From NCBI GenBank assembly GCA_016928395.1, contig JAFGKV010000034.1, positions 1 through 6,941 of the forward strand: a DNA stretch of 6,941 bases. Direction: 5' to 3'. The position numbers and the translations under genes were made by a program. The stretch is from Candidatus Fermentibacterota bacterium. Lineage in GTDB: Bacteria > JAFGKV01. The notes under the pieces are model-generated. The model was not told the origin of the DNA. It saw nothing but the letters and a program-made list of their open reading frames with translations, and ran no database searches. Each line of letters starts with the position of its first letter. The stretch's first letter is position 1. This document shows positions 680 through 5,149 of the stretch, piece after piece.

Positions 680-2647
680 CTATCCCGCAGTATCGACCGT
701 CAAGAACGAGGTATGGGGAGACAGGAGGCCATGCTCCAGCGCGTGGGCCTGGATGGCGGCATCGATGTCTTCAGCCGAGTCGGCCAGGGCATGGCGGATC
801 AGCTCGGCGAGCCGGCGGCGGGCCCAGACCATCGCCAGGGCGGGATTTGTCGGGTGCATGGGCGGAACCGGCCGATTCACAGACCAGACCCCGCTGGCTC
901 TTCGACCGGTCAGAACCAGGGCCGATGCCATCTGACTGCACCGGGCAATGAGCGTCACGGGGCGGCCAGGATAGAGATCGGGCAGGCGCCGTGGCAGGAG
1001 ATCCGCGGAAGTGCCTTCGAGATCTACGGCGACGTCGGTAAGTGCCGGCCGGCTCAGGCTCTCCAGAAGCCTGCGTGCGACATCGCTGGGAGCGGCCTCG
1101 GCCTTGAGATAGGCGACTCCTCCCCGGCCCTGCACTGCCATGGCTTCAAGCAGGAGACGGTTCACCACAGTGCCCGTTCCGAAACAGAAGACGCGCATTG
1201 CCGGATCCTTGTGCAGGGCCTCGAGAACCGGCCCTGCCGGATCATCGATGTACCCGTCCGTCACCACCAGAAGCACTCTTTGCCTGCTTTGGTCATGGGG
1301 CAGTGCGAGGGCCGCTCGCAGGCCTGTCAGCATTCCTTCGCCCTCGTCCGGCGGCAGGGTGCGCAGGAGCTCGACCGCGCGAGCGATGTTCTTCGACGAC
1401 GCAGGGAGCATCCGATGGCTGAAGACTTGGCCTCCGAAGCTCGCAATGGTGAACGTGTCGGTGGAATCCAGGACGGCGAGGGCTTCCTCCACCAAATGCT
1501 TGGCGGTGTGGAGGTTCATACCGCGCATGCTGGATGAGCAATCCAGGAGGAATCGCACGTCCAGGGGCCTTTGGGCGAGGGACCCCGCATCGGCGGGCGG
1601 GAGCAGCATGATGCCGACATAGTCACCAGTCTGATCACGGTGGGAGAATACGCCGGTTTGGATGTCGTCAGCAGCCACAAAGCACCGGAGCACGAACGGG
1701 TCTTCTCCCGTCGTGATGACCCCCGTGACCCGTACATCGGCCCGATCAGGAGCGGGATGCTCCACGTCTACCTCGTGGGAGGGGCTGGCTATGTCGCGGA
1801 TCGGTACGCCCATGCCCAGCTCGACGGTCATCGTCACAGGGGTATGGTCAGGATGGGAATCGGGCCACCCGACTCCTTCGTCCTCCATGCCGGCGGATCT
1901 GACGGCCATGTTCAGCGGCACCGTAAGCTGGAAGGCCGCATCGACATAGGCGAGATGGCCGCAGTATGAGTAACCGAGGTTCATGGTGTGCCCGGGCGGC
2001 ACATTGTCAATGGCGTGGCGCATGGATTCCGGCTGCTGCTCGATGAGTGATGCCATGAGACCGCGTTGCCGAGCCATGCGGTAGATGGAGAGGGCCTCTT
2101 CCCGGGCGCGGATGACGCCGCGGATGGTGCGGGGGCCGAGGGTAACGGTGAAATCGCGGACCGAGGCATCCTCCGGCAGGGGGAACTCATAGACGAAGTC
2201 GGCCGTGTCGGGCGTGCTGTTCACCAGGGTGTGCCGTAGGTCTACCGTGACAACGAATCCGGTCACTTTGGCACTGATCGAGATGGGTTGGCAGAGGGAT
2301 CGCATCTTGTCCACTGACTTTGTCGCTGCTGCTCCCAGAGCGGCCCCGTGCGGGGGCGCCACGGCTCTGTCACGGCGCACTATGACCCACAGTTCGTCCG
2401 CGGCGGCCCGCGGCTGCAAAACGGCATCTGCCTCATCGACGACTTGGATGTCTGATTCGGGGATCAGATAGAGCGATGGCTCCCATGTCTCCATCGCCTT
2501 CTCACGCGTCTCTTCAGCCGCGAGTCCCTTGGCCGGTGCCCGCGCCGGAGAAGGCTCACGGGCGAAACGCTCATGCCCGCAGCGACACCCCGTTGCCACC
2601 AGGGGAAGAACGAGCAGGATTCCCGCGATCAGCCTTTGTCGTGTCAT
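680..2647 (-). CDS. VIT and von Willebrand factor A domain lipoprotein
   Basis: This 655-residue protein is predicted to be exported and lipid-anchored. The N-terminus has Arg at positions 3 and 5, a hydrophobic core and a lipobox-like VATGC, with Cys21 as the probable lipidated residue. Residues about 115-245 match the VIT domain pattern of inter-alpha-trypsin-inhibitor heavy-chain relatives, including the YEFPLP strand and the later VPPG turn. Residues about 360-530 form a vWA domain with a complete MIDAS metal site: D369-x-S371-x-S373, T441 in TGLRAAL, and D464 in VVTDG. The C-terminus has the helical segment usual after VIT-vWA pairs and ends in a SPHTSFLTVD-type motif. The ATG overlaps the TGA of the upstream cohesin-like gene (ATGA), which suggests translational coupling. 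vWA-MIDAS domains usually bind proteins through Mg2+ or Mn2+; the ligand here is unknown. It is the last gene of the sigma-factor operon. Confidence 0.92.
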   Translation of the reverse strand: MTRQRLIAGILLVLPLVATGCRCGHERFAREPSPARAPAKGLAAEETREKAMETWEPSLYLIPESDIQVVDEADAVLQPRAAADELWVIVRRDRAVAPPHGAALGAAATKSVDKMRSLCQPISISAKVTGFVVTVDLRHTLVNSTPDTADFVYEFPLPEDASVRDFTVTLGPRTIRGVIRAREEALSIYRMARQRGLMASLIEQQPESMRHAIDNVPPGHTMNLGYSYCGHLAYVDAAFQLTVPLNMAVRSAGMEDEGVGWPDSHPDHTPVTMTVELGMGVPIRDIASPSHEVDVEHPAPDRADVRVTGVITTGEDPFVLRCFVAADDIQTGVFSHRDQTGDYVGIMLLPPADAGSLAQRPLDVRFLLDCSSSMRGMNLHTAKHLVEEALAVLDSTDTFTIASFGGQVFSHRMLPASSKNIARAVELLRTLPPDEGEGMLTGLRAALALPHDQSRQRVLLVVTDGYIDDPAGPVLEALHKDPAMRVFCFGTGTVVNRLLLEAMAVQGRGGVAYLKAEAAPSDVARRLLESLSRPALTDVAVDLEGTSADLLPRRLPDLYPGRPVTLIARCSQMASALVLTGRRASGVWSVNRPVPPMHPTNPALAMVWARRRLAELIRHALADSAEDIDAAIQAHALEHGLLSPHTSFLTVDTAG

Positions 2648-3123
2648 TGAGCATCTCCGAATTCACAGCGTACCGATGCCTTGATACGCGTACCGTCACG
2701 TGTTGCGGCCACAGAGAGCACGGGCTCGAACACGGGGGTGATCGCAGCCTTGGCCATAAGGTGAACCGTGGCTACCCGTGATCGAGTTCGGGGAAGATCG
2801 CGTGCCGTGCTGAATGCCGCCAGCGCGATGCGATTCCCCCGGAGCGCCTTCGGATCATGGTAGGGGGGACTTCGAAACGCGGGATGCTCACCCCCCTCGA
2901 TGCCCACGATGATGCTACTGGCGCTGCTATCGGAGAGCTCGACCTGGTATGCGGCCAATGGCTGGCCGCCGGGATCGATGTAGACGTGCAGCGGCATGAA
3001 GATGACCGAATCGGCGAAGGCGGCGGTGTCAGGGCCGGCGGTCTCGCCTCGGCATGGGCCAAGGAACGGTAGCGTCAGCAGGGTGCAGACTACCCAGGCG
3101 CATGCACGCAAGAATGCTCGCAT
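2644..3123 (-). CDS. Exported cohesin-like domain protein
   Basis: This 159-residue protein has a signal peptide (Arg at 2 and 6, hydrophobic stretch at about 8-22, likely cleavage near GPCRGETA). Residues about 39-155 resemble a cohesin-fold beta-sandwich: a strand HVYIDPGG followed by PLAAYQVELSD, then IIVGIEGG, a PPYHDPKAL segment and GNRIALAAFST. This order (v-dpgg-aYq-el, then gv-gg, PPyydpk, gri-laafs) is typical of cohesins and related modules, so the assignment is by pattern, not by search. I chose the inner ATG at 3123 because GAGG lies just upstream and the signal peptide begins there; a start at 3180 would add a tail ahead of the signal peptide and overlap the dockerin gene. It begins 7 nt after the dockerin gene and overlaps the next gene by ATGA. 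No enzyme domain or transmembrane anchor is seen. Confidence 0.78.
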   Translation of the reverse strand: MRAFLRACAWVVCTLLTLPFLGPCRGETAGPDTAAFADSVIFMPLHVYIDPGGQPLAAYQVELSDSSASSIIVGIEGGEHPAFRSPPYHDPKALRGNRIALAAFSTARDLPRTRSRVATVHLMAKAAITPVFEPVLSVAATRDGTRIKASVRCEFGDAQ

Positions 3124-3130
3124 TACATCC

Positions 3131-3550
3131 TCACCACAGAGCCACGGCCACCGCCGCGATGAGGTCGACATCGACCTCATCGACGAGGCCGTCTGCGTTC
3201 ATATCCCACCCCCCCTCTATCTTCTCTGTGGCTTCCATGCGCCGGGCCAGGGCGAAGGCATCGAGAATGTCTACCTCACCGTTGCCATCGATATCGCCGG
3301 GAATTGACTCCCGCGAGAGAGGCAGTATGGCCAAGATCGCCGCAGCCGCAGCCGCGGCTGCCAGCGGGAATAGGTACCGGACTATCCGGGCACGTGGTGT
3401 GGCGGCGAAATGCCGCCACACCGCCCGGCGGATCGTATCATCGACCTCGGCCGGCACTTCCCGAGGGGCACCGTACAGAGACCGGAGATCGGCGAGCAAT
3501 GTGGCCGGGGCCTCGAGATCGGCATCGCGAATGTCGTGGTGATCAGTCAT
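3131..3550 (-). CDS. Membrane-anchored dockerin type I protein, possible sigma-factor regulator
   Basis: This 139-residue protein has three parts. Residues 1-56 are a charged segment, probably cytoplasmic, with the motif DLRSLYGAPREVPAEVDD. Residues about 57-78 are one transmembrane helix containing eight consecutive Ala. Residues about 84-139 are a dockerin type I module with two EF-hand-like calcium loops: D86-D88-N90-G91-V93-D94-D97, and D116-N118-D120-G121-V123-D124-D127. Arg-rich residues before the helix and an acidic tail after it place the dockerin outside the cytoplasm. The ATG at 3550 is preceded by GGGAG with a 6-nt spacer, which is better than the ATG at 3574. The gene follows the ECF sigma gene by 75 nt, the usual place for an anti-sigma factor. 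No zinc-binding HxxxCxxC anti-sigma motif is present, so a regulatory role is inferred from position and topology. Confidence 0.85.
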   Translation of the reverse strand: MTDHHDIRDADLEAPATLLADLRSLYGAPREVPAEVDDTIRRAVWRHFAATPRARIVRYLFPLAAAAAAAAILAILPLSRESIPGDIDGNGEVDILDAFALARRMEATEKIEGGWDMNADGLVDEVDVDLIAAVAVALW

Positions 3551-3563
3551 GGTAGTCTCCCGA

Positions 3564-3596
3564 GTGTACAGCACCGTCAGGGCGCGAAAGGTTCAC
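3564..3596 (-). promoter_or_regulatory. Possible ECF-type promoter before the dockerin gene
   Basis: Reading on the minus strand, GTGAACCTTT (from 3596) resembles the AAC-containing -35 element of many ECF sigma factors. It is followed after 16 nt by TGCTGTAC, a tentative -10. If used, it would give a very short leader before the GGGAG ribosome site (3557-3561) and would let the sigma factor feed its own downstream genes. The -10 match is weak, so this is a suggestion only. Confidence 0.3.
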
Positions 3597-3625
3597 GCCG
3601 AAGGCAGGCACTCCCACGGCATCCT

Positions 3626-4174
3626 TCATTGAAGCTCCTCGAAGTAGCTTCGGGTGGATTCATCCTCGCGAAGCGCCTTGAGGGCATTGTGCAACCGTGA
3701 CTTCACCGTTCCCAAAGGGACGGCGAGCGCCTCGGCGATGTCTTCGAGTTTCATGTCATCGACGAATCGCATGAGAAGTACTTCGCGATGAATGGCGGGC
3801 AGTGTCGTGACTATGTCGGCGAGGCTGCGCTCTGCCCCGCTCTCCTTGGGAGGTTCACCGGCATACAGTACGATGTTCTCATCCAGAACGATGCGCCGGG
3901 TCTTCCGTAACCTGCTCAAGGCGATGTTCTTGATGACCGGGTAGAGGAAGGTTGTGAATGCAGCCGTGAGCCTGAACCCCGGGAATTTCCTCAGCAGGTA
4001 GATGAACGCTTCCTGCATGACATCCATGGCGTCGTCGTGGTTGCCGGTGAAACGATAGGAGAGCTGAGCCGCCCAGGCTTTGTGGCGTTGGTAGAGGGCA
4101 TCGAACGCGCGGGGGTCGCCCCGGTTGGCCGCCTCTACCAGTTGTTCGTCACTACGCCCATTGGATTCTGCCAC
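3626..4174 (-). CDS. ECF-type RNA polymerase sigma factor
   Basis: This 182-residue protein has the two-domain ECF layout. Sigma region 2 spans residues about 9-95: the DEQLVEAANRGD start, then AFDALYQRH, then the core-binding stretch DAMDVMQEAFIYLLRK, then the promoter-melting and -10-reading segment up to LSRLRKTRR. A short linker follows. Region 4 spans residues about 115-172, with LPAIHREVLLMRFVDDM and the helix-turn-helix around LEDIAEALAVPLGTVKSRLH. Length is normal for the family, and region 3 is absent, as expected. Translation appears to start at a GTG (4174) preceded by GAGG at a 5-nt spacing. No in-frame ATG lies near it. It heads the four-gene minus-strand operon and is divergent from the outer-membrane protein gene. 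Its likely role is to direct RNA polymerase to a small regulon in response to an envelope signal. The specific ECF group is not determined. Confidence 0.95.
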   Translation of the reverse strand: MAESNGRSDEQLVEAANRGDPRAFDALYQRHKAWAAQLSYRFTGNHDDAMDVMQEAFIYLLRKFPGFRLTAAFTTFLYPVIKNIALSRLRKTRRIVLDENIVLYAGEPPKESGAERSLADIVTTLPAIHREVLLMRFVDDMKLEDIAEALAVPLGTVKSRLHNALKALREDESTRSYFEELQ

Positions 4175-4421: not shown

Positions 4422-4444
4422 AGGATAGAATGAGGAGCAGAATC

Positions 4445-5149
4445 ATGAGGTTGTTCTCCGCTGCCGCATTGTGTGTGCTCGTCGCGACTACACCAGCCCG
4501 GACCGCCGAGACCACTGCGGGTCTCGATCTGGTTTCCGCGTATGTGTTTCGGGGTGTGACCTACAATGACGGGCCGTGCCTTCAGCCGTACGTAGAGACG
4601 AGCGCCGGGCCATTGGCTTTCAATGTGTGGGCCAACTTCGACCTGAACGACTATGATCTCGTCCAGGCCGGTGATTTTTCTGAGATCGACCTTACTCTCT
4701 CCTGTGGTTTCTTCCTTGGGGAGACTGAACTCACGGCTGGTGTGATGGAGTTCCTCTTTCCTGAAGGCGGACCCGACACAAACACCGGAGAGCTGTTCAT
4801 GTCTGCCGATGTTCCGCTCGTGGGGGGAATCGGCGCGTCGGCATACGTGGGCTACGACTTCGTTCTCGTGAAGGACGTCTATGCCTCGGTGGGGCTGGCG
4901 TACGAGCTTCCTCTGGACGCACTCGCGGTCACCGCTTCAGTGAAGGCAGGCTATGCAGGAGAGGATGCCTCGGCGGGAGGGGCGGCGGGCTTTCACGAGT
5001 ACGAGGTAAAACTGCAAGGCGAATACCCCGTGTCTGAGAGCCTTACGCTGGGAGGATTCTTGATGCACACCAGCGGCATCGACGCGGATGTGCTCCCTGA
5101 GCAGGACGTTGACTTCTTCGGCGGTCTAACCCTTGGTCTTTCGTTCTGA
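4445..5149 (+). CDS. TorF/Gcw_chp-like outer-membrane beta-barrel protein
   Basis: This 234-residue protein has a signal peptide (MRLFSAAALCVLV, predicted cut after about residue 21, ARTA/E). The mature part opens with GLDLVSAYVFRGVTYNDG and LQPYV, matching the start of the TorF/Gcw_chp putative porin family, in which a YvfRG motif precedes a Q-containing strand. Alternating hydrophobic strands with Gly and aromatic residues follow, and the protein ends FFGGLTLGLSF. The terminal Phe with alternating residues is the usual BAM insertion signal. I chose the ATG at 4445 because GAGGAG (4432-4437) precedes it by 7 nt. The ATG at 4430, with GAGG 5 nt upstream, is a close alternative that only adds MRSRI. 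The frame remains open back to 4271, but that part is Arg/Glu-rich and not signal-like. The family is called a porin, but substrate and pore activity are unknown here. Confidence 0.82.
   Translation: MRLFSAAALCVLVATTPARTAETTAGLDLVSAYVFRGVTYNDGPCLQPYVETSAGPLAFNVWANFDLNDYDLVQAGDFSEIDLTLSCGFFLGETELTAGVMEFLFPEGGPDTNTGELFMSADVPLVGGIGASAYVGYDFVLVKDVYASVGLAYELPLDALAVTASVKAGYAGEDASAGGAAGFHEYEVKLQGEYPVSESLTLGGFLMHTSGIDADVLPEQDVDFFGGLTLGLSF

Follow-up and report, generated by a model that had tools for sequence, protein, structure and literature searches.

A Four-gene Cassette in Which a Cohesin-Dockerin Pair Probably Serves as the Outer Lock of an ECF Sigma Factor

Organization of the Locus and the ECF Sigma Factor

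The window analyzed here, a 6,941-nucleotide stretch from Candidatus Fermentibacterota bacterium (contig JAFGKV010000034.1), carries four genes arranged head to tail on the minus strand, which encode an ECF sigma factor, a membrane protein with a dockerin (TM-dockerin), a secreted protein with a predicted cohesin fold, and a VIT-VWA lipoprotein. The last three are tightly packed, with a gap of 7 bp between the TM-dockerin and cohesin genes and an overlap of 4 bp between the cohesin stop and the VIT-VWA start, and are one unit. The sigma factor (3626–4174, minus strand; 182 amino acids from a GTG start) matches Sigma70_r2 (E = 1.6e-15) and Sigma70_r4_2 (E = 4.6e-14) in Pfam, both above cut-off, and the sigma70-ECF profile TIGR02937 with 84.8 bits (cut-off 42.9). 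With regions 2 and 4 only, and an ECF profile above its cut-off, it is assigned by its sequence to the ECF sigma factors. The VIT-VWA protein (680–2647, minus strand; 655 amino acids) matches VIT (E = 3.4e-21) and VWA_3 (E = 3.8e-13) in Pfam, and a lipobox-like LVATGC in its translation has counterparts in the other loci that were read.

Two further elements flank the cassette. A porin-like gene with a weak Gcw_chp match (4430–5149, plus strand) adjoins the sigma gene in divergent orientation and is retained in a genome of the same genus (locus L013, 1586–2293); the sigma factor may act on this gene. Beyond the other end of the operon, units resembling ATCATTCC form an imperfect tandem array in the non-coding stretch at positions 76–186.

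The TM-dockerin Protein

The TM-dockerin protein, in the position expected of an anti-sigma factor, comprises 139 amino acids from its ATG (3131–3550, minus strand), or 147 from an alternative GTG at 3574. It contains one hydrophobic segment at approximately residues 59–78 (3317–3376, minus strand; hydropathy 2.31), with a net charge of +6 on the N-terminal side and −4 on the C-terminal side. From these flanking charges and the positive-inside rule, the N terminus would be cytoplasmic and the dockerin outside the membrane. The dockerin itself (residues 84–131; 3158–3301, minus strand) scores 32.4 bits with Dockerin_1 (PF00404; E = 1e-7), above the cut-off of 22.9, and the corresponding part of the structural model described below (residues 1–60) aligns to the solved dockerin 6kg9 with a Z score of 6.8. 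Dockerin folding needs calcium, and all ten calcium-ligand positions (Asp86, Asp88, Asn90, Asp94, and Asp97 in the first loop; Asp116, Asn118, Asp120, Asp124, and Asp127 in the second) are occupied by Asp or Asn. They are conserved in 16–17 of 17 homologues, more strongly than the rest of the protein, which, with two such calcium-binding loops, is by sequence a type I dockerin protein. The protein is ∼61% identical in the same-genus genome and syntenic in many others, which is far beyond chance.

The initial annotation of this locus had placed, after an ECF sigma gene, a protein of 139 residues that comprises a short cytoplasmic segment, a single membrane-spanning helix, and a dockerin with both calcium loops intact; Pfam, charge, and hydropathy confirm that description, and the ligand positions bear out the integrity of the loops. 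It was also right that the zinc anti-sigma motif is missing, as HxxxCxxC is absent from the window protein and Pfam reports the dockerin alone.

The Secreted Neighbor Has a Predicted Cohesin Fold

Beyond the sigma factor and the TM-dockerin protein, both of which stand, the initial annotation had overlooked the two genes that follow, at 3123–2644 and 2647–680. The first of these (2644–3123, minus strand) encodes a 159-residue protein with a signal peptide and no Pfam match. Homologues of this protein were gathered from a whole-genome collection (16 loci) and aligned, and an artificial fusion was modeled in which the window dockerin is joined to the secreted protein through the native signal peptide of the latter (26 aligned rows). 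The model has a mean pLDDT of 89.5 and a pTM of 0.82, with the cohesin part contributing ∼122 of the 223 residues. In a Foldseek comparison with solved structures, ranks 1–19 are all cohesins, many of them from cohesin-dockerin complexes, the best being 6kgf_A (E = 4.8e-4). VIA-align returned 47 rows of cohesins, including 6kge_A with a Z score of 10.1 and an r.m.s. deviation of 2.8 over 115 residues; RseB is not among the listed fold matches, which argues neither for nor against a relation to it. Residues 38–159 (2647–3012, minus strand) are thus predicted to adopt a cohesin fold.

This fold was detected by structure comparison only. The Pfam Cohesin profile (PF00963) matches neither the window protein nor any of 18 family members, and searches of Pfam and of PDB sequences with the protein and its profile found no cohesin, because identity to solved cohesins is only ∼10%. 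Direct profile comparison (hhalign) of the window family with Pfam-recognized cohesins is likewise weak (9%). A diverged second subgroup of the family scores 99.4% against the window family and 76.6% against the Pfam-recognized cohesins, and so provides a weak sequence-level link between the two. Judged by its model, the window protein is a previously unrecognized cohesin and adds a cohesin family that is invisible to current profiles.

The confidence of the fused model carries a strong hint that the window dockerin docks on its own cohesin, since the cohesin alone could give a pTM of ∼0.55, and the 0.82 of the fusion would require a confident placement of the 60-residue dockerin against it. 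The secreted cohesin should fit the window dockerin, and calcium-dependent binding is predicted. Moreover, the neighbor is the obvious dockerin partner because no Pfam cohesin was found in its own genome (a 94% complete assembly). The same genome yielded only four dockerin matches, three of which share a different contig, and neither a multi-cohesin scaffoldin nor dockerin-bearing glycoside hydrolases of the cellulosomal kind.

These observations also bear on where the cohesin comes from. The initial annotation had suggested cohesin binding outside the cell. In that form, the dockerin would detect, for example, a scaffoldin or a surface protein of another organism, for which clostridial anti-sigma factors that bear extracellular sensor domains offer an analogy (PMC4711584). 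Binding of a cohesin as an event outside the cytoplasm is supported; the cohesin, however, is encoded by the next gene, a dedicated partner in a genome in which no Pfam cohesin was found, and with a Gram-negative layout, in which the cohesins are either secreted or lipoproteins, pairing within the periplasm is likelier. Detection of a foreign cohesin is consequently extremely improbable.

Conservation of the Cassette

Related loci were collected through the cohesin only, and the 39 with a clear member were scanned by tblastn and HMM. As the loci were found through the cohesin alone, their neighboring genes are independent evidence. In 35 of the 36 testable loci, the gene directly upstream of the cohesin, in the same orientation, encodes a dockerin; 28 of 31 have an ECF sigma gene upstream of or near the dockerin-cohesin pair, and 31 of 33 have a VIT-VWA gene after the cohesin. 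The sigma gene shares the strand of the pair in 23 loci; in seven, it is transcribed divergently and does not form the operon head (L024, L026, L032, L033, L035, L076, and L091; these are Planctomycetaceae-like loci, as exemplified by the first five). The recurrence of sigma plus TM-dockerin pairs across genomes, which the initial annotation had proposed to survey, is borne out by these counts, and they argue against the converse, that dockerin homologues are mostly found apart from sigma genes.

The cassette was found in Planctomycetota, in a Verrucomicrobiales and a Myxococcales MAG, in a MAG labeled Proteobacteria, and in a Candidatus Fermentibacteria genome of the same family. The cohesin occurs in ∼9% of 392 sampled Planctomycetota, in two of 145 genomes of the phylum to which the Verrucomicrobiales MAG belongs and, outside its own family, in one of ∼380 genomes sampled across the rest of the domain. 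A reverse search of 294 Planctomycetota with the TM-dockerin profile gave 15 strong matches, every one with a cohesin-like gene adjoining. Fourteen of these are in genomes of the cohesin list, at the same place, and for the fifteenth (G082, locus L129) the adjoining gene encodes a diverged lipoprotein cohesin.

The conservation of the calcium ligands above all other positions of the TM-dockerin protein would suit a calcium sensor, in which periplasmic calcium folds or unfolds the dockerin as the sole control of the sigma factor and the cohesin is auxiliary. That a cohesin-fold gene adjoins nearly without exception, in the diverged second subgroup as well, argues against such an arrangement, which we regard as very improbable.

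The N-terminal Segment and a Putative Anti-sigma Role

The cytoplasmic N-terminal segment (residues 1–57; 3380–3550, minus strand) is the candidate sigma-binding part. In a fused sigma/anti-sigma model built from 13 rows, two short helices are predicted with low confidence at approximately residues 16–26 and 34–50 (pLDDT 64); the model speaks neither for nor against a contact with the sigma factor. The initial annotation had singled out LRSLYGAPREVPAEVDD as a conserved-looking candidate for sigma contact; conservation is limited to a loose VP-x-VD pattern and the helix that follows, and the exact segment is kept only loosely.

Relatives of the window protein are more explicit. Homologues at loci L014, L015, L100, L106, and L129 carry a zinc anti-sigma module at the N-terminal position. 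In the genome of the same family and in the paralogue from the window genome (P0007 and P0008), the N terminus contains HxxxCxxC, with zf-HC2 matches below cut-off, whereas at L100 zf-HC2 (E = 1.7e-9, above cut-off), a membrane helix, and Dockerin_1 (E = 7.2e-9) are found in one protein, which sits beside an ECF sigma factor and a lipoprotein cohesin. As the dockerin protein of these relatives begins with a zinc anti-sigma domain, an anti-sigma role of the TM-dockerin protein is supported. The earlier suggestion that the dockerin is the sensor of an anti-sigma factor draws partial support from this fusion and from the sigma linkage.

Of the features of class I anti-sigma factors, the TM-dockerin protein has the linkage to an ECF sigma factor (28 of 31 loci) and the signs of a single-pass, N-in topology; neither the Hx3Cx2C motif of the zinc class (ASD-I) nor a recognizable four-helix domain was found in the window protein. 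Single groups of class I anti-sigma domains are known to contain zinc and non-zinc members side by side, with most of the predicted contacts made by helix 4 (PMC7406223); consequently, a reduced, zinc-free anti-sigma end appears plausible.

It is also conceivable that the TM-dockerin protein is a structural anchor that merely tethers the cohesin, and via the cohesin a VIT-VWA envelope complex, to the inner membrane, while the sigma factor drives the operon without being held. The N-terminal segment is short, with just 57 cytoplasmic residues and no zinc module, the model of its contact with the sigma factor is of low confidence (pTM 0.31), and at three loci (L027, L034, and L079) the dockerin and cohesin genes have ample upstream sequence and no sigma homologue nearby. 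The segment, the low-confidence model, and the three loci also count against a switch that acts on the sigma factor. However, the same protein bears a zinc anti-sigma domain in related loci, and the sigma linkage persists where transcription is divergent. We therefore consider a purely structural anchor unlikely.

Proposed Mechanism

The domains, the topology signs, the cohesin fold of the model, and the conserved linkage are probably best accommodated by an envelope-sensing cassette of the RpoE-RseA-RseB kind, in which the cohesin-dockerin pair acts as a lock on the outside. The TM-dockerin protein would be the membrane anti-sigma factor, its cytoplasmic end holding the ECF sigma factor and its dockerin facing the periplasm. 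The exported cohesin would bind this dockerin in a calcium-dependent manner, and occupancy of the dockerin would set whether the anti-sigma factor retains or releases the sigma factor, with gating most likely through protease access or a changed oligomeric state. Cohesin binding may favor either retention or release. Within the envelope, the VIT-VWA lipoprotein is the likely partner on the input or output side, and may deliver the cohesin or compete for it.

Two comparisons were counted against such a switch. A search for a common ECF promoter upstream of the sigma genes gave nothing of note above chance, and the distance-matrix partial correlation between dockerin and cohesin was 0.03 (0.54 for sigma-cohesin and 0.36 for sigma-dockerin). 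Species relatedness was left in these matrices and the dockerin is short, for which reasons co-evolution was set aside as evidence.

Comparison with Known Systems

In the RseA-RseB system, an exported partner binds the anti-sigma factor outside the cytoplasm. The window cassette resembles RpoE-RseA-RseB and AlgU-MucA-MucB in its order of sigma factor, single-pass anti-sigma factor, and exported partner, here proposed to act on the periplasmic part. It differs in that this part is a dockerin, the partner is a cohesin, and a VIT-VWA lipoprotein is added; to our knowledge, neither dockerin nor cohesin is a homologue of RseA or RseB. In the Muc system, it is the exported MucB that binds the periplasmic part of MucA (PMC7400510).

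SigI-RsgI shares with the window a membrane anti-sigma factor whose extracytoplasmic binding domain comes from the cellulosome world. The sensors of RsgI in Clostridium thermocellum are, however, carbohydrate-binding modules paired with a SigI-type sigma factor (PMC4711584), whereas the window sensor is a dockerin, which should bind a protein, and the window sigma factor is of the ECF type. Cellulosomal type I cohesin-dockerin complexes (for example, 1ohz and 6kgf) are matched by a dockerin above the Pfam cut-off with both loops and by a partner whose model is cohesin-folded; in contrast to these complexes, the cassette has no scaffoldin or enzyme, its cohesin lies below Pfam Cohesin detection, and its context is regulatory. 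A non-cellulosomal use of cohesin and dockerin in Planctomycetota has a precedent in the proposed planctosome of freshwater Planctomycetes, large extracellular peptidase-complex proteins; a search of that paper found no tie to sigma or anti-sigma factors (PMC6461901).

A search confined to open-licence literature found no earlier description of a dockerin tied to an ECF sigma or anti-sigma factor. The cassette suggests an RseA/RseB-type switch made of parts that are not known in such a role. Few known protein pairs are as tight as those of cohesin and dockerin, which have been viewed as enzyme scaffolds, and the recurrence of the cassette across several phyla suggests that this cellulosomal protein lock is also used for gene switching. 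Whether the proposal extends to a set of phylum-crossing transmembrane switches is in our estimate evenly balanced. In these, the organism's own cohesin would lock or unlock the dockerin of the anti-sigma factor, the signal being calcium or a ligand that the VIT-VWA protein handles; the pairing would then be a signaling receptor and not a means of enzyme assembly. If correct, this would give ECF sigma factors a new type of input from outside the cytoplasm, would account for the lone dockerins of Planctomycetota and related phyla as well as for secreted genes that are unannotated there, and would offer a compact, testable set of sigma factor, anti-sigma factor, and partner for orthogonal signaling.

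Second Cassettes and Other Dockerins

A second cassette (L015), of the HxxxCxxC form, lies on a different contig of the window genome. Loci L100, L102, L104, L106, and L129 make up a second, diverged cassette family, composed of an ECF sigma factor, a zinc or unusual anti-sigma factor with a dockerin, and a cohesin-like lipoprotein. The gene downstream encodes a YfbK-type VWA protein in L106 and a DUF4349 protein in L129. The three further dockerin matches of the window genome (L001, L003, and L004) lie on contig G000:C113, where an ORF of at least 732 amino acids has a dockerin among repeated domains that appear cohesin-like by eye; from its sequence, this contig possibly encodes a second cohesin-dockerin system.
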